64,000 nt of DNA, taken from Rhodobacter sp. (GTDB taxonomy: Bacteria > Pseudomonadota > Alphaproteobacteria > Rhodobacterales > Rhodobacteraceae). Shown here one piece after another: positions 29,761 to 39,439 of the stretch (position 1 is the first letter of the stretch; each line of letters opens with the position of its first letter). The stretch spans positions 496,001 to 560,000 of the forward strand of contig JAIXUH010000013.1 of the NCBI GenBank assembly GCA_027484145.1, written 5' to 3'. The position numbers were made by a program, and so were the translations under genes. Under the pieces are notes generated by a model, which was given only the letters and a program-made list of their open reading frames with translations, was not told the DNA's origin and ran no database searches.

Positions 29761-30169
29761 GGCGGACCATTCTGTGGATATGCACTGTTTGTTCACAAAG
29801 GTATATTGGTGGCAAGTCTATCCCGATGCGTGAGGGTGGTGGAGGACGGGCGTTTGTCAAGACGCCCAAGGCGACTATCCACCTGTGGACGCAGACGGCA
29901 GGCTATTGTGGACGATGTCGATTTCTGGCCAAATCGACAGAAAGAGGGGTTAAGTCCGGCAAAAGTTCGCCAATCCTAAGTATCTGATAGAAAATAACCT
30001 TCTGTGTTCTATCCACAGGAAAGGCTACTTCTCCACGGAGTTATCCACCTGCCGTTTCATGTGGACAGATACCGTGGATATCCGATCTTTCCCCCTATCC
30101 ACAGGGTCTACAACATCATTCCTTTTTCTTTCTCTTCTTAATAGAGAGAAGGAAACGGAGGGTGGACTG
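29761..30169. other. oriC: Chromosomal replication origin (oriC)
   Basis: A 409-bp gene-free gap with many DnaA-box-like 9-mers. The closest to TTATCCACA or its complement, one mismatch each, are TGTGGATAT (29773-29781), CTATCCACA (30009-30017), TTATCCACC (30041-30049) and CTATCCACA (30095-30103). Weaker boxes lie at 29875, 29884, 29907, 30029, 30060 and 30073. No box is a perfect match. An AT-rich stretch sits inside. Genes diverge from it on both sides, maf-to-dnaQ left and hemJ-to-parB right, and parAB plus three parS sites are within 9 kb. This matches the origin neighbourhood of Caulobacter and other alphaproteobacteria. Confidence 0.85.
29972..30000. other. AT-rich stretch, candidate DNA unwinding element
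   Basis: 21 of 29 bases are A or T, a strong local dip in a high-GC region. It lies between the left and right groups of DnaA boxes, immediately before the box at 30009. Assignment as the unwinding element is inferred. Confidence 0.5.
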
Positions 30170-32075: not shown

Positions 32076-33362
32076 ATGGCGGAGACAGTATTCGCATTGG
32101 CCACGGCTCGTGGAAAAGCCGGGGTCGCAGTCGTTCGGATTTCGGGACCTGCCGCGCCAGATGGTCTGCTGGCACTTGGTGTCGCCCTTCCACCACCACG
32201 GCATGCAGCGCTGCGGGTCCTGCAGTGCGATGGCGACGTTCTGGATGAGGCGATCGTCCTTTATTTTCCGAAGGGGCAGAGCTTCACGGGTGAAGATGTT
32301 GTCGAGTTGCAGATGCATGGCAGTGCAGCTGTGTTGAGTGCGGTCGTCAAGGCTTTGGGTCGTGTTGAGGGCTTGCGTCCAGCACTGGCTGGAGAGTTTA
32401 CGCGCAGGGCACTGGAAAACGGCCGGATGGATCTGTCTCAGGTTGAAGCTTTGGCTGACCTGATCGATGCCGAGACAGAAGCCCAGCGGCGGCAAGCACA
32501 GCGTGTATTGTCAGGAGCGCTGCTGGAACGAACAGAATTGTGGCGGCGCGATCTTATCCGCGCGTTGGCGTTGATCGAGGCCAGCATTGATTTCGCCGAT
32601 GAGGATGTTCCGGTGGACGTGACGCCTGAGGTGGGCACCATTCTGGACAGCCTTCTCGCGGCATTCCGAAAGGAATTGGCTGGCGCTCGGGTGGCTGAGC
32701 GAGTTCGGGATGGCTTTGAGGTGGCGATCATTGGGGCGCCAAATTCAGGAAAATCCAGTCTTTTGAATGCCTTGGTTGGTCGCGATGTAGCGATTACATC
32801 GTCTGTGGCTGGAACGACGCGGGATATCATCGAAGTTCGCATGGACTTGGACGGTCTACCGGTGACGTTGCTGGACACTGCAGGATTGCGTGAGACGCAG
32901 GACGAAGTTGAGCAGGTTGGGGTGGAGCGTGCGAGGCGACGAGCGGAGAGGGCCGATGTAAGACTTTGGCTTGTCGCGCCGGAAGACCCGACTCCGGATT
33001 GTGTCGTTGGTCCGGCGGACATGATTGTTGGGTCCAAAGCAGATTTGCAACCGCGTGTTGGAGCAATCTCGAGCCACACTGGCCTGGGTCTGGATCTACT
33101 GCTGGCGGAAATCAGCGCACGGCTTGGAACAATGGCAGCAAACCCGGGTGTGTTGATCAGAGAACGGCAGCGACACGCGCTTTCTTCCGCGACTGCCGCT
33201 TTGGAATCAGCACAAAGGTGGTTATATGACGGCGGTGTCCAAGCCGAACTGATATCGGCAGATGTAAGGTCGGCGATTCAGGCCTTGGAAATGCTGGTTG
33301 GCCGGATTGGGGTAGAGACAGTTCTGGGCGAAATCTTCGCCAGCTTTTGTATCGGGAAATAG
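32076..33362 (+). CDS. mnmE: tRNA modification GTPase MnmE
   Basis: A 428-residue GTPase that with MnmG installs (carboxymethyl)aminomethyl groups at U34 of certain tRNAs. The N-terminal folate-binding domain begins [24 protein letters not shown]. The G domain has [28 protein letters not shown] and LLDTAGLRE. The essential C-terminal CIGK motif is present. Only 1 bp separates it from mnmG, an ideal arrangement for stoichiometric complex formation. Confidence 0.97.
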
Positions 33363-33363
33363 G

Positions 33364-35238
33364 ATGTTTCACGTGAAACAATTCGATGTCATTGTGGTTG
33401 GAGGTGGCCATGCAGGTGCGGAAGCGGCTGCAGCGGCTGCGCGCACAGGTGCAGCGACCGCCTTGATTACGATGAAGGCCGCATCCATTGGTGTCATGTC
33501 CTGCAACCCGGCAATTGGCGGTTTGGGTAAGGGCCATCTTGTTCGTGAGATTGATGCACTGGATGGGGTAATGGGCCGAGCGGCTGATCGTGCCGGCATC
33601 CAGTTTCGATTGCTTAACCGCCGGAAGGGCCCGGCAGTGCAAGGACCACGGACCCAAGCGGACCGAGCATTGTATCGGAATGCTGTTCAAGACTTGCTTT
33701 CCGATCAGAGGGATCTTCATGTGATCGAAGGAGAGGTCGCAGACCTTCTGATTGACGGTGGTCGGTGCGTGGGCGTGACTCTGGCAGACGGCGTAAGCCT
33801 GATGTCGTATTCTGTGATTCTAACTGCCGGGACTTTTCTGAATGGTTTGATGCACATTGGTGACGCGCGCAAAGTGGGTGGGCGCATGGGCGACCCGGCA
33901 TCGAGGCGTCTTGCTGATAGGCTCAATGATATGGGTCTCGCCCATGGACGTCTAAAGACGGGAACGCCCCCTCGTTTGGACGGGCGGACGATAGATTGGC
34001 AGCGACTTGAGCGGCAGTCGGCTGACAGCGATCCCACAATGCTGTCGTTCATGAGTAAGGGACCGCTGGTCCGACAGATCGACTGTGGAATAACGCACAC
34101 CAATGAACGGACGCATGATATCGTTCGGTCCAACCTGCACCGATCGGCCATGTATGGCGGACATATCGAAGGTGTCGGCCCGCGCTATTGCCCATCCATC
34201 GAAGATAAGGTCGTTCGGTTCTCGGACAAAACGAGCCATCAGGTGTTTCTTGAGCCCGAAGGCTTGGACGATCATACAGTTTATCCCAATGGAATCTCAT
34301 CGTCTTTGCCAATTGAGGTCCAGGAGAGATATGTGCGGAGCATTGAGGGCTTGGAGAATGTAGCGATTCTGCAACCTGCTTACGCTATCGAGTATGACTT
34401 TTTTGATCCGCGAAATGTAACAACGTCGCTAGAGTTGCGTTCCTGTCCTGGCCTCTATCTTGCCGGGCAGATCAACGGTACGACGGGGTATGAAGAGGCC
34501 GCTGCGCAAGGATTGGTGGCGGGGTTGGCAGCAGCAATGCGGGCAAAGGGCGAACCGCCGCCGATGTTTGCAAGAACTGACTCCTACATCGGTGTCATGA
34601 TCGACGATCTTACAACGCATGGCGTCACGGAACCGTACCGGATGTTTACGTCGCGGGCAGAGTATCGGCTACACTTGAGGGCAGATAATGCTGACCAGCG
34701 TCTGACGAAGATGGGGATAGAGTTGGGTTGCGTGGGCCAAGACCGTCTGCGCAACTTTGAAACAAAAATGCACAAGCTGGCAGAAGTGCGCGAAGCATTG
34801 ACACGCAAACAGGTGTCACAGAAGGAACTTGTGCACTTTGGCGTGAAAGTGAGCAGCAACGGTCAGACGCGAACCGCGCTAGACGTGATCGGGGGCCTAA
34901 ATCTGGACAGTGAACTGTTGTTTTCGATATTGCCCGAGCTGTCCTTGCTTGATGCAGAGACATTTGAGCAGATCAGAAGAGATTCGATCTATACCAGATA
35001 TCTTGATCGGCAACAGAATGAGGTGGATCGGCTCCGTCGCGATGAGCAGGTGTTGATTCCTTTAGGCCTTGATTTTGCAGCTCTATCTGGCCTGTCGACA
35101 GAGCTTAGAGTCAAACTCACCACAGTGCGCCCTGCGTCTCTTGGGCAGGCTGCTCGTATCGAAGGAATGACGCCCGCAGCGTTGGCATTGATACTGGCGA
35201 ATGTTCGGAAGGCTTCCGGACAACGCGCGGCGGGTTAG
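33364..35238 (+). CDS. mnmG: tRNA uridine-5-carboxymethylaminomethyl modification enzyme MnmG (GidA)
   Basis: A 624-residue FAD enzyme, partner of MnmE. The FAD motif is [40 protein letters not shown] and [21 protein letters not shown] are signature blocks, and the C-terminal helical region ends [18 protein letters not shown]. The first codons overlap a perfect parS palindrome, giving the N-terminus MFHVKQ. The coding sequence looks less GC-rich than genes elsewhere in the window. Confidence 0.98.
33365..33380. other. parS: parS site 1, overlapping the mnmG start
   Basis: TGTTTCACGTGAAACA is a perfect 16-bp palindrome identical to the bacterial parS consensus bound by ParB. It begins at the second base of the mnmG ATG and encodes part of MFHVKQ. 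Confidence 0.92.
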
Positions 35239-35246
35239 GCGGTCGT

Positions 35247-35858
35247 ATGTGGGTTGGACAGCCAATTGTTTCACGTGAAACAGGCCAGCGACTGAGAAGT
35301 TATGCGGACCTGGTCGAAAAATGGAACCCCAGCATCAATCTCGTATCAAGGCAAAGCTTGCTGAATTTGGGCGAACGGCATTTTCGTGACTCGGCTCAGC
35401 TCTACGCCATCCCGGACGTTGCGGTAAATCGCTGGGTTGACTTAGGCAGTGGCGGTGGTTTCCCAGGGATCGTGATTGCCATCCTGGCAACGGAGACCAA
35501 GGGCAGGCCCGAGGTGATTCTCGTTGAGGCGGATGGCAGAAAGGCGGCATTCTTGAGAGAAGTGGCACGAATACTTTCTCTGAATGCGCGGGTTATTCAT
35601 TCGCGAATTGAAGACGTGAAACCTCTCGGCGCGGATGTCATTTCAGCACGAGCGCTCGCACCGCTATCTCAGCTTTGTGCTTTCAGTGCTGTCCATATGC
35701 GCCCGGACGGGATTGGTATCTTCCCAAAGGGCGCACAGTACCAACAAGAGTTCGGTGATGCACAAAGAGAGTGGTCGTTTGATGCAGCGATCGTCCCAAG
35801 CGTCACAGATCCAGAGGCATCCATCCTGTGCTTGAGGAATATCCGCCATGCCGGTTGA
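35247..35858 (+). CDS. rsmG: 16S rRNA (guanine527-N7)-methyltransferase RsmG (GidB)
   Basis: A 203-residue SAM-dependent methyltransferase that makes m7G527 in 16S rRNA; loss gives low-level streptomycin resistance in several bacteria. The SAM motif is WVDLGSGGGFPGIVIAIL and the acidic strand is VILVEADGRKAAFLREVAR. Residues VSRET near the N-terminus are encoded by a parS palindrome. It starts 8 bp after mnmG and overlaps parA by 11 bp. Confidence 0.96.
   Translation: MWVGQPIVSRETGQRLRSYADLVEKWNPSINLVSRQSLLNLGERHFRDSAQLYAIPDVAVNRWVDLGSGGGFPGIVIAILATETKGRPEVILVEADGRKAAFLREVARILSLNARVIHSRIEDVKPLGADVISARALAPLSQLCAFSAVHMRPDGIGIFPKGAQYQQEFGDAQREWSFDAAIVPSVTDPEASILCLRNIRHAG
35267..35282. other. 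parS: parS site 2, inside the rsmG N-terminal coding region
   Basis: TGTTTCACGTGAAACA, identical to the other two sites and a perfect palindrome, lies 20 bp into rsmG. In the rsmG frame it encodes VSRET. Confidence 0.92.
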
Positions 35859-36675
35859 CTTACATGCGAAGGGGCCGAGGGTGATCGCTGTGGCGAACCA
35901 GAAAGGCGGCGTGGGAAAGACAACAACAACGATCAACGTTGCTGCCGGCTTGGCTGAACTCGGCTATAGGGTGCTCGTGGTTGATCTTGACCCTCAGGGG
36001 AATGCGTCAACTGGCCTTGGCGTTGACATAGCGGACAGGGAGCGTACCAGTTATGATCTCTTGCTGGAGCACGCAGCATTGGCTGAACTCGTGCGACCGG
36101 CAAGTGTTCCAAATGTCTGGATTTGTCCGGCAAATTCGGACCTTGCCTCTGCCGATATTGAACTTGTAGCAAACGAGAAGCGGTCGTTCCTGCTCTATGA
36201 TGCGCTTCGAGGACCGCTTTCACAGGCATTGGGCTTTGACTTTATGCTCATCGATTGCCCGCCGTCGCTGTCACTCTTGACCGTCAACGCATTGGTCTCG
36301 GCGCATTCTGTCCTCGTTCCACTTCAAAGCGAGTTCTTCGCCCTTGAGGGCCTCTCGCAACTGATGCTGACAATCCGGGATGTCCGGCATACCGCCAATC
36401 CGGATCTGCGGATCGAAGGAATCGTTGTAACGATGACGGATAGTCGGAACAGGTTGTCGCAGCAGGTCGAGGCCGATGTCCGGTCTACTTTGGGCGAATT
36501 GGTCTTTGCGACGACGATTCCAAGAAATGTGCGCGTATCGGAGGCCCCGTCTTTCGCGCTGCCGGTGTTGGCCTATGACTCCGCCTCAAAGGGTGCCGAG
36601 GCTTATCGGAAACTGGTGATTGAAATTGTAGCGCGTCATCCTGGTCGGGACAAGATAAAGGCAGAGGCATCATAA
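35848..36675 (+). CDS. parA: Chromosome partitioning ATPase ParA
   Basis: A 275-residue deviant-Walker ATPase that moves ParB-parS origin complexes during segregation. The P-loop KGGVGKTT is at residues 19-26, followed by VLVVDLDPQGNASTGLG, DFMLIDCPPSLSLLTVNAL and VTMTDSRNRLSQQV. It overlaps rsmG by 11 bp and is followed one base later by parB. Confidence 0.97.
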   Translation: MPVDLHAKGPRVIAVANQKGGVGKTTTTINVAAGLAELGYRVLVVDLDPQGNASTGLGVDIADRERTSYDLLLEHAALAELVRPASVPNVWICPANSDLASADIELVANEKRSFLLYDALRGPLSQALGFDFMLIDCPPSLSLLTVNALVSAHSVLVPLQSEFFALEGLSQLMLTIRDVRHTANPDLRIEGIVVTMTDSRNRLSQQVEADVRSTLGELVFATTIPRNVRVSEAPSFALPVLAYDSASKGAEAYRKLVIEIVARHPGRDKIKAEAS

Positions 36676-36676
36676 C

Positions 36677-37597
36677 GTGGAAAAGAAACCTGAACGGCGT
36701 GGCCTTGGGCGCGGCCTTTCCGCCTTGATGGCGGATGTAAACCTTTCAAATGCAGCACCAGCTGGAACTGAAGGCCGCGCCGCGACTTCAGAGGCACGGA
36801 TTGCTGTCGAGAAGATCTTCCCAAACCCAAACCAGCCACGGCGTGACTTTGATGCAGAGGCGCTGCAGGAGCTTGCGGCCTCTATCGCTTCAAAAGGGAT
36901 CATCCAGCCGCTCGTCGTTCGGTCGCGATCAACCCCCGGTGAGTACGAGATCGTCGCGGGAGAACGTCGTTGGCGCGCAGCGCAGTTGGCGCAGGTTCAT
37001 GAAGTGCCTGTGGTTGTACGTAGCTTTTCTGATGATGAAGTGCTGGAAATTGCCATAATTGAGAATATCCAGCGCACAGATCTCAATGCTGTGGAGGAGG
37101 CATTGGGATTTCGGCAGCTGATGGATCGGTTCGGCCATACACAAGAGAAACTGGCAGAGGCGTTGGCAAAAAGCCGCAGTCATATCGCCAATACGCTCCG
37201 GCTCTTGTCGCTTCCGGAAGATGTGTTGTCCTTGGTCCGGCATGGAAAGATCAGCGCCGGCCATGCTCGGGCCTTGATTGGTTCTGCTGATCCTTCTGCT
37301 CTGGCCCGTAAGGTAGTCGCAAGCCAGATGTCCGTGCGGGAAGCCGAGAAATTGGCACGCGCGGTCACCACAAAGCCGAAAGCTGGACGTAAATCGGCCG
37401 AAGGTCCAGCGTCAGAAAAGGATGCGGACACCAAAGCCATTGAGGCTGACTTGTCCGCAAACCTTGGGATGATGGTGACGATCAGTCACGGAGCGAGTGG
37501 CGAGGGCGGAACGCTTTCCATTTCCTACCGCGATTTGGACCAACTGGACATGCTTTGCCAGGTGCTGTCGGTCATACCGCGCGATTTCGCGCGCTGA
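36677..37597 (+). CDS. parB: Chromosome partitioning protein ParB
   Basis: A 306-residue CTP-dependent clamp that loads at parS and spreads along DNA. It starts with GTG. The N-terminal KPERRGLGRGLSALM contacts ParA. The CTP-binding GERRWRA box is at residues 95-101, with IENIQRTDLNAVEEA after it. The helix-turn-helix is TQEKLAEALAKSRSHIANTLR. The C-terminal dimerisation domain ends VIPRDFAR. The 3' end overlaps the convergent hemW by 26 bp. Confidence 0.97.
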   Translation: MEKKPERRGLGRGLSALMADVNLSNAAPAGTEGRAATSEARIAVEKIFPNPNQPRRDFDAEALQELAASIASKGIIQPLVVRSRSTPGEYEIVAGERRWRAAQLAQVHEVPVVVRSFSDDEVLEIAIIENIQRTDLNAVEEALGFRQLMDRFGHTQEKLAEALAKSRSHIANTLRLLSLPEDVLSLVRHGKISAGHARALIGSADPSALARKVVASQMSVREAEKLARAVTTKPKAGRKSAEGPASEKDADTKAIEADLSANLGMMVTISHGASGEGGTLSISYRDLDQLDMLCQVLSVIPRDFAR

Positions 37598-38774
37598 TTG
37601 GAGGCACTGTCCAGTCTGGCATCAGTTTCTCGATAACGGCATTCAGGATCAGCTTGCCGCTGGTCGTTGCTACGATCCGATCGTTATGTATCTCGATCAT
37701 GCCGAGACTCGATAGTTCGGAGAGCTCAGCGCTCGGCAGCGGTTGACCAAACAGCTGGGAAAATCTTTTGCCGTCGATGCCCTCGGCCAACCGCAATCCC
37801 ATGACCAAGAACTCGGCCGCCTGATCACGTAGGCTCAGACTGTCGCGCGCAACCTCACCGTTTTGCTCGGTTTGGACTTTCTGAAGCCACAAAAGTGGAA
37901 CCTTTTCCCCAATCGTAGCCACCCTCCGGCCATCTGCGCGAGTTAGCCGGCCATGTGAGCCGGGTCCAATGCCGACGTAGTCCCCGCCGCGCCAATAAAT
38001 GATGTTGTGTCGCGCTTCATGTCCTCGCCTTGCATGGTTGGACACCTCATAAGCCGGCAGCCCAAGGCTTTCACAGACCTGCTGCGTGAGTAGAAACATG
38101 TCCGCTGACGCGTCTTCACCCGGCAGGCCCTTCAGCAGTCCACGCTCAAAACGTTCGCCGAACACGGTATCCGGTTCAATGGTCAATTGGTACAAAGACA
38201 GATGTTCTGCCGCCAGAGAGATCGCAAAACGCAGTTCGGTCTCCCACTCGACCAGAGTTTGATCTTGCCGTGCGTAGATTAGGTCAAAACTTGTACGTTG
38301 AAACACATCCTGCGAAGTAGAAATTGCCTGAATGGCTTCTTCCTTGGAATGCATGCGCCCCAAGCGCCGAAGATCGCTGTCGTTCAGGGCTTGTATGCCA
38401 ATCGACACCCGGTTGACCCCGGCCGCTCGAAAGCTCCGGAACTTCGCTGCCTCGACCGATGTGGGGTTTGCTTCCAGCGTGACCTCAAGATCATTGGCCG
38501 GCGTCCAAAGCGTTGAAGCCCGATCAATGATTGCTTCAACCATGCTTGGCGGCATCAGGGATGGCGTGCCGCCACCAAAGAAAATGCTGGCAAGACGCCG
38601 GTTTGTCGTTTCAGCAGCTGAACGGTCCAGCTCAGCGAGAAATGCGTTGGTCCACGCCTCTGTATCTACCTCGCGCGCTACATGGCTGTTGAAGTCACAA
38701 TAGGGGCATTTGGCCAGACAATAGGGCCAATGCACGTAAAGGCCAAAGCCTGCGTCTTGCCAGCGTTCGGTCAT
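37572..38774 (-). CDS. hemW: Radical SAM heme chaperone HemW
   Basis: A 400-residue radical SAM protein. The 4Fe-4S motif is CLAKCPYCDF with Cys19, Cys23 and Cys26, followed by FFGGGTPSLMPP. The cysteine pattern lacks the extra CxC of true HemN coproporphyrinogen dehydrogenase, so HemW, a heme-binding chaperone that inserts heme into respiratory enzymes, is the better call. It overlaps the end of parB convergently and lies 56 bp after rdgB, with parS site 3 at the boundary. Confidence 0.93.
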   Translation of the reverse strand: MTERWQDAGFGLYVHWPYCLAKCPYCDFNSHVAREVDTEAWTNAFLAELDRSAAETTNRRLASIFFGGGTPSLMPPSMVEAIIDRASTLWTPANDLEVTLEANPTSVEAAKFRSFRAAGVNRVSIGIQALNDSDLRRLGRMHSKEEAIQAISTSQDVFQRTSFDLIYARQDQTLVEWETELRFAISLAAEHLSLYQLTIEPDTVFGERFERGLLKGLPGEDASADMFLLTQQVCESLGLPAYEVSNHARRGHEARHNIIYWRGGDYVGIGPGSHGRLTRADGRRVATIGEKVPLLWLQKVQTEQNGEVARDSLSLRDQAAEFLVMGLRLAEGIDGKRFSQLFGQPLPSAELSELSSLGMIEIHNDRIVATTSGKLILNAVIEKLMPDWTVPPISARNRAV

Positions 38775-38826
38775 GAGAGTGCTTTCCCCTTTGTGCTGTG
38801 ACGCATCTGGCTAAGATTCATCGTGA

Positions 38827-38842
38827 TGTTTCACGTGAAACA
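38827..38842. other. parS: parS site 3, overlapping the rdgB stop
   Basis: TGTTTCACGTGAAACA, a third identical perfect palindrome. On the minus strand it supplies the last codons of rdgB, TGT TTC ACG, and its TGA stop. Confidence 0.92.
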
Positions 38843-39438
38843 GCCGGAAATCAGCTTTCGGAAAGCATCCGCGCGGTGGCTGATCTCGTTCTTCTGCCAG
38901 CGATCCATTTCACCAAATGTGATGCTAAAGCCGTCGGGCTGGAAGATCGGATCATAACCATGCCCCTGCGTCCCGCGCATCGGCCAGACAATCTGGCCCG
39001 GCATTCGCCCCTCAAACACCTCATCTGATCCATCAGGCCAAGCCAAAACCAGCGTGCATCGGAACTCGGCAAGGCGAGGGTACGGAGCGCCAACCGCTTC
39101 CAACTCGGCCCATGTCCGTGTCATGGCTTGCGCGAAGTCGCGGCCAGTTGGTGTTTCTGCCCAATCTGCGGTCCAAACGCCCGGTGCGCCATTCAGGGCC
39201 GCCACACAAACCCCAGAGTCATCTGCAAGCGATGGAAAGCCCGTCCCTTGCGCGGCATGGTGCGCTTTGATCCGCGCGTTGCCGACAAAAGTGCTTTCAG
39301 TCTCCGCTGGCTCAACCAAACCAAACTCCGCAACAGACCGCGTAGCAACCCCGTATGGCCTGATTAGAGCCGATATCTCCTCAAGCTTGCCCGCATTATG
39401 AGTGGCAATGACGAGTGTTTCGCTCGAGAACTTTCGCA

Positions 39439-39439
<1 letters not shown>
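38831..39439 (-). CDS. rdgB: Non-canonical purine NTP pyrophosphatase RdgB/HAM1
   Basis: A 202-residue enzyme that hydrolyses dITP, ITP and XTP to monophosphates and so protects DNA and RNA from deaminated purines. The phosphate-binding THNAGKLEEI, the catalytic LADDSGVCV and the C-terminal QGHGYDPIFQPDGFSITFGEM are all present. The stop codon is formed by a parS palindrome. The start codon shares one base with the rph stop. Confidence 0.96.

Follow-up and report, generated by a model that had tools for sequence, protein, structure and literature searches.

The locus raises the question of how one DNA word can mark a chromosomal centromere and at the same time form part of three genes. In the 64,000 nucleotides of Rhodobacter sp. 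DNA that were analysed (the window), the 16-letter word TGTTTCACGTGAAACA occurs exactly three times (33365-33380, 35267-35282 and 38827-38842), as reported in a preliminary description of this DNA, which had named the copies three identical perfect parS palindromes. No further match with up to three mismatches was found anywhere in the window, and shuffled versions gave a mean of 0.14 matches, with three reached in 0 of 100 shuffles. Throughout the assembly (4,966,842 bases, 39 contigs) these three are the only exact copies, the runners-up having three mismatches; all exact copies are thus clustered in 5.5 kb around parA-parB, and all fit the 16-bp parS consensus exactly. The word would appear to serve as the start of one protein, as five residues of a second and as the stop of a third. 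At a probability of about 80%, we favour the reading that the palindromes are the chromosomal parS centromere, read by the neighbouring ParB and merged with gene signals in three different ways.

Genes, sites and samples

The features referred to are as follows.

29773-30103, no strand: possible replication origin, DnaA-box words near the divergent maf-hemJ start regions, weak statistics
32076-33362, plus strand: mnmE (NF003661), directly upstream of mnmG, stop TAG at 33360-33362
33361-33364, plus strand: AGGA, proposed Shine-Dalgarno of mnmG, immediately adjoining parS and sharing bases with the mnmE stop (from sequence, upstream base counts and spacing)
33364-35238, plus strand: mnmG reading frame of the preliminary description, 624 residues from ATG 33364 (TIGR00136)
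33365-33380, no strand: parS site 1, exact, covering the spacer of the mnmG ribosome-binding site, the proposed start codon and the codons after it
33373-33375, plus strand: GTG at the centre of parS, proposed as the actual start of mnmG (from conservation, spacing and position relative to FDV)
33373 onwards, plus strand: proposed MnmG protein with GTG start, 621 residues, M-K-Q-F-D-V...
35247-35858, plus strand: rsmG, 16S rRNA methyltransferase (TIGR00138)
35267-35282, no strand: parS site 2, exact, encoding V-S-R-E-T, rsmG codons 8-12
35848-36675, plus strand: parA, matching P-loop ATPase families (best ParA_partition, below cut-off), adjoining parB
36677-37597, plus strand: parB, chromosomal ParB (TIGR00180; match to 6t1f; parS-type specificity residues)
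38827-38842, no strand: parS site 3, exact, encoding on the minus strand the last RdgB residues Cys-Phe-Thr and the TGA stop
38831-39439, minus strand: rdgB, non-canonical purine NTP pyrophosphatase (NF011397, TIGR00042, both below curated cut-offs)

NCBIfam cut-offs were passed by MnmE, MnmG, RsmG, RNase PH, HemW (TIGR00539) and the ParB domain (TIGR00180). RdgB remained below them (160.7 of 234 bits for NF011397, 143.8 of 145.35 for TIGR00042), and ParA matched many P-loop ATPase families, ParA_partition best, with none above cut-off among the 25 matches listed. Four of the ten one-mismatch DnaA-box words in the window lie at 29.77-30.10 kb, about 3.3 kb from site 1; ten words against 5.9 expected is weakly above chance, being reached by 6 of 100 shuffles, and the possible origin at 29773-30103 was placed using the DnaA-box word and the typical gene order. 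ParB aligns with the ParB structure 6t1f over residues 6-255 (E 1.6e-68) and keeps R173, T179, G201 and a serine at 184 (alignment to 6t1f, numbering hand-counted from the paper's letters). Its specificity residues are of the parS type and not of the Noc type; in the excerpted text of PMC7383237, R173 and G201 are described as absolutely conserved in ParB and positions 179 and 184 as variable.

Relatives were compared in several samples. An exact site was present in 192 of 196 order-level genomes, and exactly two in 158, mostly about 1.9 kb apart where places were listed. The Rhodobacterales set consisted of the window, genomes of its order and the similarity-picked named loci L001-L035 and L037; L036, titled Rhodospirillaceae, was counted with the other alphaproteobacteria and thus outside the 112 rsmG loci of this set. 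For most genera of the order a single locus was taken, and three-site genomes were included in addition. The class sample comprised 80 of 237 new genomes, mostly one per family code, with G388 added on purpose; 70 of them gave MnmG, of which 59 were taken. L035 has no rsmG, and L271, L277, L278 and L302 gave none and lie outside the 57 rsmG loci of other families. The duplicates L183, L187, L195 and L205 were dropped from the rsmG, rdgB, mid-gene, upstream-base and Shine-Dalgarno counts, and L170, L213 and L222 were omitted from the mnmG tree, their identical mnmG stretches, from the same genome places, being represented by L143, L111 and L134. The distant loci L038-L080 (n = 43, titles mostly Gammaproteobacteria) entered only a whole-locus scan for parS-like words. 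What the computation shows is where the sites lie, how far they are conserved, how they are constrained codon by codon, how they are spaced and how they are lost.

Site 1 and the start of mnmG

In the preliminary description MnmG began with MFHVKQ. Its readings of the other two gene ends, VSRET in RsmG and the stop of rdgB, are correct as sequence, whereas MFHVKQ is probably not the N-terminus of MnmG; the true start is most likely GTG 33373-33375 in the parS core. All 135 distinct mnmG loci retain this GTG; because the set was made to take in every one of the 24 genomes with none or one exact site, rates of variants in it are inflated. The core GTG stands three codons before F-D-V in 68 loci, and among 60 loci from other alphaproteobacteria the nearest in-frame start lies most commonly at that distance (19 ATG, 4 GTG); against this, a distance of four to five codons is also common (65 of the 135). 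Of 113 loci, 97 have a run of at least four bases matching AGGAGG at a distance of 6-11 nt from the core GTG, and 16 have none. Measured from the outer codon, the same run falls at -3 to +2 nt. The spacing at site 1 is right for the core GTG only, which combines a Shine-Dalgarno at a workable distance with conservation as a start codon among relatives. For comparison, 194 of 367 control starts (a crude set of tblastn matches to starts of window open reading frames) had such a run, 174 of these at 4-10 nt.

Initiation at ATG 33364, which would make MFHVKQ a real, jointly constrained N-terminus with parS merely tolerated at variable termini, agrees with a reading frame open from 33364, with the gap-free alignment of the solved MnmG/GidA structure 3cp2 from residue 1 (MFHVKQ against MFYPDP) and with an ATG, GTG or TTG at the outer position in 120 of the 135 loci. 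We nevertheless regard it as improbable: a mere 18 of these 120 codons are ATG, against 306 of the 367 control starts; the T of the supposed start, parS position 1, is the most variable base of the site, changed in 13 of 135 loci where position 16 is changed in 0; the Shine-Dalgarno run lies on or beside the codon; and 14 loci have the core GTG as sole usual start, lacking any in-frame ATG, GTG or TTG between the upstream stop and the core. On the mnmG tree, the presence of such a codon upstream of the core GTG changed at least 13 times. Natural variants of the outer codon include GCG.

Dual starts, giving two MnmG forms three residues apart, or a choice between them that depends on lineage, would be possible where both codons stand in frame, as they do in the 120 loci. 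The spacing of the outer codon is ill-suited to the conserved Shine-Dalgarno run, a problem that re-initiation from mnmE could bypass, and the remaining loci limit use of the outer start to particular lineages at most; we consider this arrangement doubtful, if less so than initiation at the outer codon alone. Initiation at the core GTG would correct a likely misreading of the start site of a conserved gene. Site 1 would then be a clean system, in which mutating its first half should affect ParB binding and the spacing for initiation and leave the protein sequence as it is.

Outside the Rhodobacterales set, 50 of the 60 mnmG loci carry the site (up to two mismatches) no more than 400 nt upstream of FDV; the distance exceeds 20 nt in 47 of the 50. 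Of 54 site-1 sites in the 60 loci, 51 lie past the point where the mnmE match ends. In three loci of other families, L257, L288 and L297, the site stands in frame close to FDV and may also overlap the start. The overlap with the start may thus have arisen by closing of the mnmE-mnmG gap, where most other sampled alphaproteobacteria keep site 1.

Sites 2 and 3 in rsmG and rdgB

In rsmG, the site is in frame with at most one mismatch in 110 of 112 loci of the Rhodobacterales set, and with at most two in 49 of 57 loci from other alphaproteobacterial families. Its spread over the class makes site 2 an old centromere site of the Alphaproteobacteria. In all 160 in-frame rsmG sites, the third codon bases at parS positions 4, 7, 10 and 13 are the same; over the 25 codons that follow the site in the 110 loci, third bases are 31-70% conserved, the Trp codon excepted. 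That VSRET, FHVK and CFT are peptides with a function of their own, the DNA match being incidental, would agree with the invariance of VSRET in the 110 loci that keep the site. This protein-driven origin was rejected, and we give it next to no weight: core synonymous bases never change, and the nine loci without the palindrome are also without VSRET, the peptide being lost wherever the palindrome is lost. The rsmG of locus L274 keeps an exact in-frame parS 48 nt upstream, the usual place reading VADQT, and the family profile matches do not extend to any of the three peptides. Since the core bases are fixed and the peptide goes with the palindrome, it is the DNA that dictates VSRET.

The refuting condition named in the preliminary description, a palindrome that drifts in relatives as the amino acids stay, was looked for and not seen: what drift there is falls almost entirely on the outer wobble bases, and no lineage among 169 rsmG loci had VSRET with scrambled synonymous codons. 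The interpretation given there is supported in part: these are parS-type sites under a strong constraint at the DNA level. Its suggestion that parS may be tolerated in variable termini is supported in that all three parS-encoded stretches fall outside the matched part of the family profiles, which begin at MnmG residue 7 (TIGR00136) and RsmG residue 17 (TIGR00138) and stop at RdgB residue 197 of 202 (TIGR00042). The PDB matches of RsmG all begin after VSRET, from residue 14 on, and gave it no structural placement. The idea that parS regularly lies at gene ends was rejected, as exact or one-mismatch sites also occur mid-gene in the coaE, mnmG and rsmG of relatives.

The rdgB end carries the palindrome (up to two mismatches) in 14 of 108 loci, and in 14 of these 14 the TGA of the palindrome is the stop, as in the window (TGA 38833-38831, minus strand, inside site 3). 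This distribution, for the most part within the window's clade, marks site 3 as gained later. It probably formed on a pre-existing ...Cys-Phe-x-stop end of rdgB, an idea that fits about half of the 94 loci without the palindrome: 51 end in Cys-Phe-x and 43 do not. The three sites accordingly differ in age, with site 2 class-wide, site 1 present at the mnmG start throughout the Rhodobacterales set and site 3 mostly at clade level.

Proposed function and relation to known systems

In the favoured reading, the Shine-Dalgarno of mnmG would end at the parS edge and TGTTTCAC would act as its spacer; the central GTG would be the start codon from which mnmG is translated, and AAA-CA the codons after it. 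Site 2, long held at one rsmG codon in Alphaproteobacteria, would force VSRET there, and site 3 would now provide the last codons and the stop of rdgB. ParB would load at all three sites and slide over the operon.

A more far-reaching proposal, which we put forward tentatively and think unlikely, is that the Rhodobacteraceae centromere is itself a translation-control element. Here parS would form an mRNA hairpin at the mnmG start, with the start codon at the loop and the Shine-Dalgarno in or beside the stem, so that mnmG translation would depend on ribosomes arriving from mnmE; loading and sliding of ParB over the operon would link expression of tRNA modification and parAB to segregation, and the constraint from ParB would lock mnmG to a GTG start family-wide. 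Site 1 of the window folded no better than shuffles (z 0.17 and -0.49); five relatives gave z of -1.50 to -3.80, and some look unusual.

The locus offers a centromere site that has held its place at a single codon of a single gene through much of a bacterial class, and another that appears to have merged with a start codon family-wide; natural variants allow constraint on the DNA to be told from constraint on the protein. The question of why certain chromosomal parS sites resist deletion is touched as well.

That parS lies inside coding sequence is already known: the Caulobacter crescentus sites are described in PMC5815017 as located in genes that are essential or carry a high fitness cost. 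Chromosomal ParABS of C. crescentus and Hyphomonas neptunium resembles the present system in its 16-bp consensus, its place beside parAB and its few clustered sites, near the origin there and near a possible origin here, with parS as translation start or stop not described in the portions of text available from PMC5815017 and PMC6650430. In H. neptunium, TGTTTCACGTGAAACA is bound by purified ParB, and the two parS sites are given there only as upstream of parAB (PMC6650430, in part). In Rhodobacter sphaeroides, a bacterium of the group in which the window is placed by its relatives, ParB1 makes origin foci via parS (ParB1-OriC1; PMC6315104); site anatomy, treated here, is absent from the part of that text examined, whereas gidA and gidB occur once each elsewhere in the paper, which may thus have noted the parS-gidAB neighbourhood. 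Titles and abstract beginnings among the matches listed (e.g. best 25 of 277 and 25 of 289), a scope outside which the main parS survey falls, describe neither parS as a start codon nor VSRET in RsmG. Dual-use coding DNA is familiar from protein-binding sites within coding sequence and from start/stop overlaps, and has in common with the present locus that a single DNA word serves both protein coding and protein binding. Unlike in those cases, the binding site here would be a centromere, used in all three frames, as start, as interior codons and as stop.

Palindromes and genes in the window

As the preliminary description had it, three identical perfect palindromes were found in the window, as exact copies of TGTTTCACGTGAAACA:

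33365, in mnmG, plus-strand gene (site 1)
35267, in rsmG, plus-strand gene (site 2)
38827, in rdgB, minus-strand gene (site 3)

No further words resembling it at up to three mismatches were detected in the window, and no further exact copy in the whole assembly; three copies were reached in 0 of 100 shuffles of the window. The gene order is mnmE, mnmG, rsmG, parA and parB on the plus strand, followed after parB by hemW, rdgB and rph on the minus strand, with RdgB and ParA called at scores under the curated NCBIfam cut-offs. Residues 6-255 of the window ParB align with the ParB of 6t1f, with Arg173, Thr179 and Gly201 retained and Ser at position 184; an excerpt of PMC7383237 describes positions 173 and 201 as absolutely conserved in ParB, and 179 and 184 as variable. 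Ten DnaA-box words with one mismatch were located, four of them within 29773-30103. This group flanks the divergent starts of maf and hemJ, some 3.3 kb away from site 1, and is a possible replication origin, on weak statistics.

The palindrome can be read as (N)TG-TTT-CAC-GTG-AAA-CA, (NN)T-GTT-TCA-CGT-GAA-ACA or TGT-TTC-ACG-TGA, and all three frames are in use in the window, in mnmG, rsmG and rdgB, respectively; direct reading bears out that the palindrome encodes VSRET in rsmG and the stop of rdgB (Cys-Phe-Thr-stop). By analogy to the known ParABS mechanism, ParB would most likely load at all three sites, slide across the operon and present it to ParA, the coding overlap of parS being a presumable by-product of the compact region. 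Putative extra effects are ParB feedback on its own operon and hairpin formation in the mRNA where mnmG starts, both possible. Folding of this hairpin gave z 0.17 and -0.49 for the window, which is not unusually stable, and z -1.50 to -3.80 for five relatives, in which stability is higher.

The probable mnmG start at site 1

Two starts were considered for mnmG: the outer codon, an NTG whose TG opens the palindrome (ATG at 33364), which yields the MFHVKQ of the preliminary description and of a longest-ORF reading, and the core GTG at 33373-33375 in mid-palindrome. In the Rhodobacterales set (the window, genomes of its order and similar named loci), the region reads, with variations, from the mnmE stop through AGGAG directly into TGTTTCAC-GTG-AAA-CA. 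Of 113 loci, 97 have an AGGAGG run of at least 4 matches 6-11 nt upstream of the core GTG (at 7 nt in 73 loci); in the other 16 none was found. The same runs lie at -3 to +2 nt relative to the outer codon, so that a start there would put the Shine-Dalgarno on or beside the start codon; in a crude control set of 367 starts of neighbouring genes, 194 have such a run, 174 of these at 4-10 nt.

The core GTG is retained in 135/135 distinct loci. The outer codon is GTG in 91, ATG in 18, TTG in 11, GCG in 7, GGG in 4, CTG in 2, and ACG and AGG in one each. As the sample takes in the 24 genomes chosen for having at most one exact site, its variant frequencies are not natural frequencies. The most variable palindrome base is the T in the middle of the supposed outer start (13 loci), with no changes at its mirror base, and 14 of the 135 loci have no in-frame ATG, GTG or TTG from the upstream stop to the core GTG; presence or absence of these codons at the outer position requires at least 13 changes on the mnmG tree. 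The 22 base changes of site 1, counted as loci and not as events, are split 20 to 2 between first and second half, as expected if coding is confined to the second. In 60 loci of other alphaproteobacterial families, the nearest in-frame mnmG start is most often 3 codons before F-D-V (19 ATG, 4 GTG); the core GTG precedes F-D-V by 3 codons in 68 and by 4-5 codons in 65 of the 135 loci. Shine-Dalgarno spacing, invariance of the core, variability of the outer codon and distance to F-D-V together place the mnmG start most likely at GTG 33373-33375. MnmG matches with one internal stop were also seen (TGA in genomes G231 and G233, TAG in G202 and G294), possibly through stop-codon reassignment, sequence error or a broken gene.

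Of the 60 loci from other families, 50 have the palindrome (up to two mismatches) no more than 400 nt upstream of the FDV codon, and for 47 of them the distance exceeds 20 nt; 51 of 54 such upstream sites fall past the end of the mnmE match. Closure of the mnmE-mnmG gap in Rhodobacterales may have brought parS flush with the Shine-Dalgarno and its GTG into use as start. In three loci of other families (L257, L288, L297) the palindrome is likewise in frame, 17 nt ahead of the FDV position; these may be parallel cases, with candidate start codons.

Sites 2 and 3 in rsmG and rdgB

For site 2, the rsmG alignment comprised 112 Rhodobacterales-set loci and 57 loci of other alphaproteobacteria, the latter for the most part a single locus per family code. 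The in-frame VSRET palindrome is present with at most one mismatch in 110/112 of the former, and an in-frame palindrome with at most two in 49/57 of the latter (48 at the usual place, L274 shifted), including L270 and L290 with VSHET. In all 160 in-frame sites with up to three mismatches, the four core synonymous bases are unchanged; changes occur at positions 1 (8) and 16 (17), both third codon positions, and at positions 5 (1) and 9 (2). Over the next 25 codons in the 110 Rhodobacterales-set loci, conservation of the third base is 31-70%, apart from the Trp codon. None of the nine loci that lost the palindrome (L013, L240, L036, L265, L269, L297, L298, L303, L309) encodes VSRET, and the three-mismatch site of L308 encodes VPRET. 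L274 has an exact in-frame parS 48 nt upstream of the usual codons, which read VADQT, the centromere having moved within the same gene. Site 2 is old; the fixed core bases, the loss of VSRET wherever the palindrome is gone and the shift in L274 argue that it is DNA-driven, and that the centromere dictates the peptide and not the peptide the centromere; the expectation that the palindrome fixes this terminus in relatives thus held.

At the rdgB end, the palindrome was found with at most two mismatches in 14 of 108 loci read to the stop (exact in 7, one mismatch in 3, two in 4), its TGA being the rdgB stop in 14/14. These proteins end in Cys-Phe-Thr (11), Cys-Phe-Ala (2) or Arg-Phe-Thr (1). As 51 of the 94 palindrome-free rdgB also end in Cys-Phe-x (43 end otherwise), site 3 may have been built on a pre-existing C-F-x-stop; L009 and L215 (CFA, two mismatches) appear to be either intermediates or copies in decay. 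In the mnmG phylogeny, site 3 occupies 11 of 19 tips below the carriers' common ancestor; two further tips stand for duplicates that have it (L143 for L170, L111 for L213), and one carrier, L222 (represented by L134), is placed apart. Judged by this distribution, site 3 is later than site 2.

Other placements and known systems

The proposed confinement of parS to gene ends does not extend to relatives, which have mid-gene sites in coaE (L022, L028; with one mismatch L008, L023) and mnmG (L244) and a second position in rsmG (L013, L017, L029, L196, L204, L240). Two genomes belonging to the same genus have their third exact parS immediately after parB and not at rdgB (L175, +4228; L176, +4229 from the mnmG start). 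By these placements, a site near a gene end is one solution among several.

Some genomes are rich in exact parS words: G374 has 18 (L312, L331, L335-L337; eight within ~7 kb of parB, others scattered along the contig), G365 13 and G199 9. G388 (L311, L325-L330, L332-L334), an alphaproteobacterial genome of 1.8 Mb with one ParB match found, has 78 on at least 11 contigs. Degenerate copies stand next to the exact ones, there are arrays of a 37-base period, and the palindrome has the appearance of a dispersed repeat in this genome.

That parS can be embedded in coding sequence is already known, e.g. from Caulobacter, whose parS cluster resembles the window in having sites inside genes; the excerpt of PMC5815017 places them in essential or high-fitness-cost genes and reports that ablation was not achievable. 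Among the literature matches and excerpts listed, no account was found of parS as a start codon family-wide or of a parS codon position common to much of a class. We therefore rate the arrangement as a variant of a known phenomenon, new, relative to these matches, in the family-wide start codon and in the codon position shared over much of the class.
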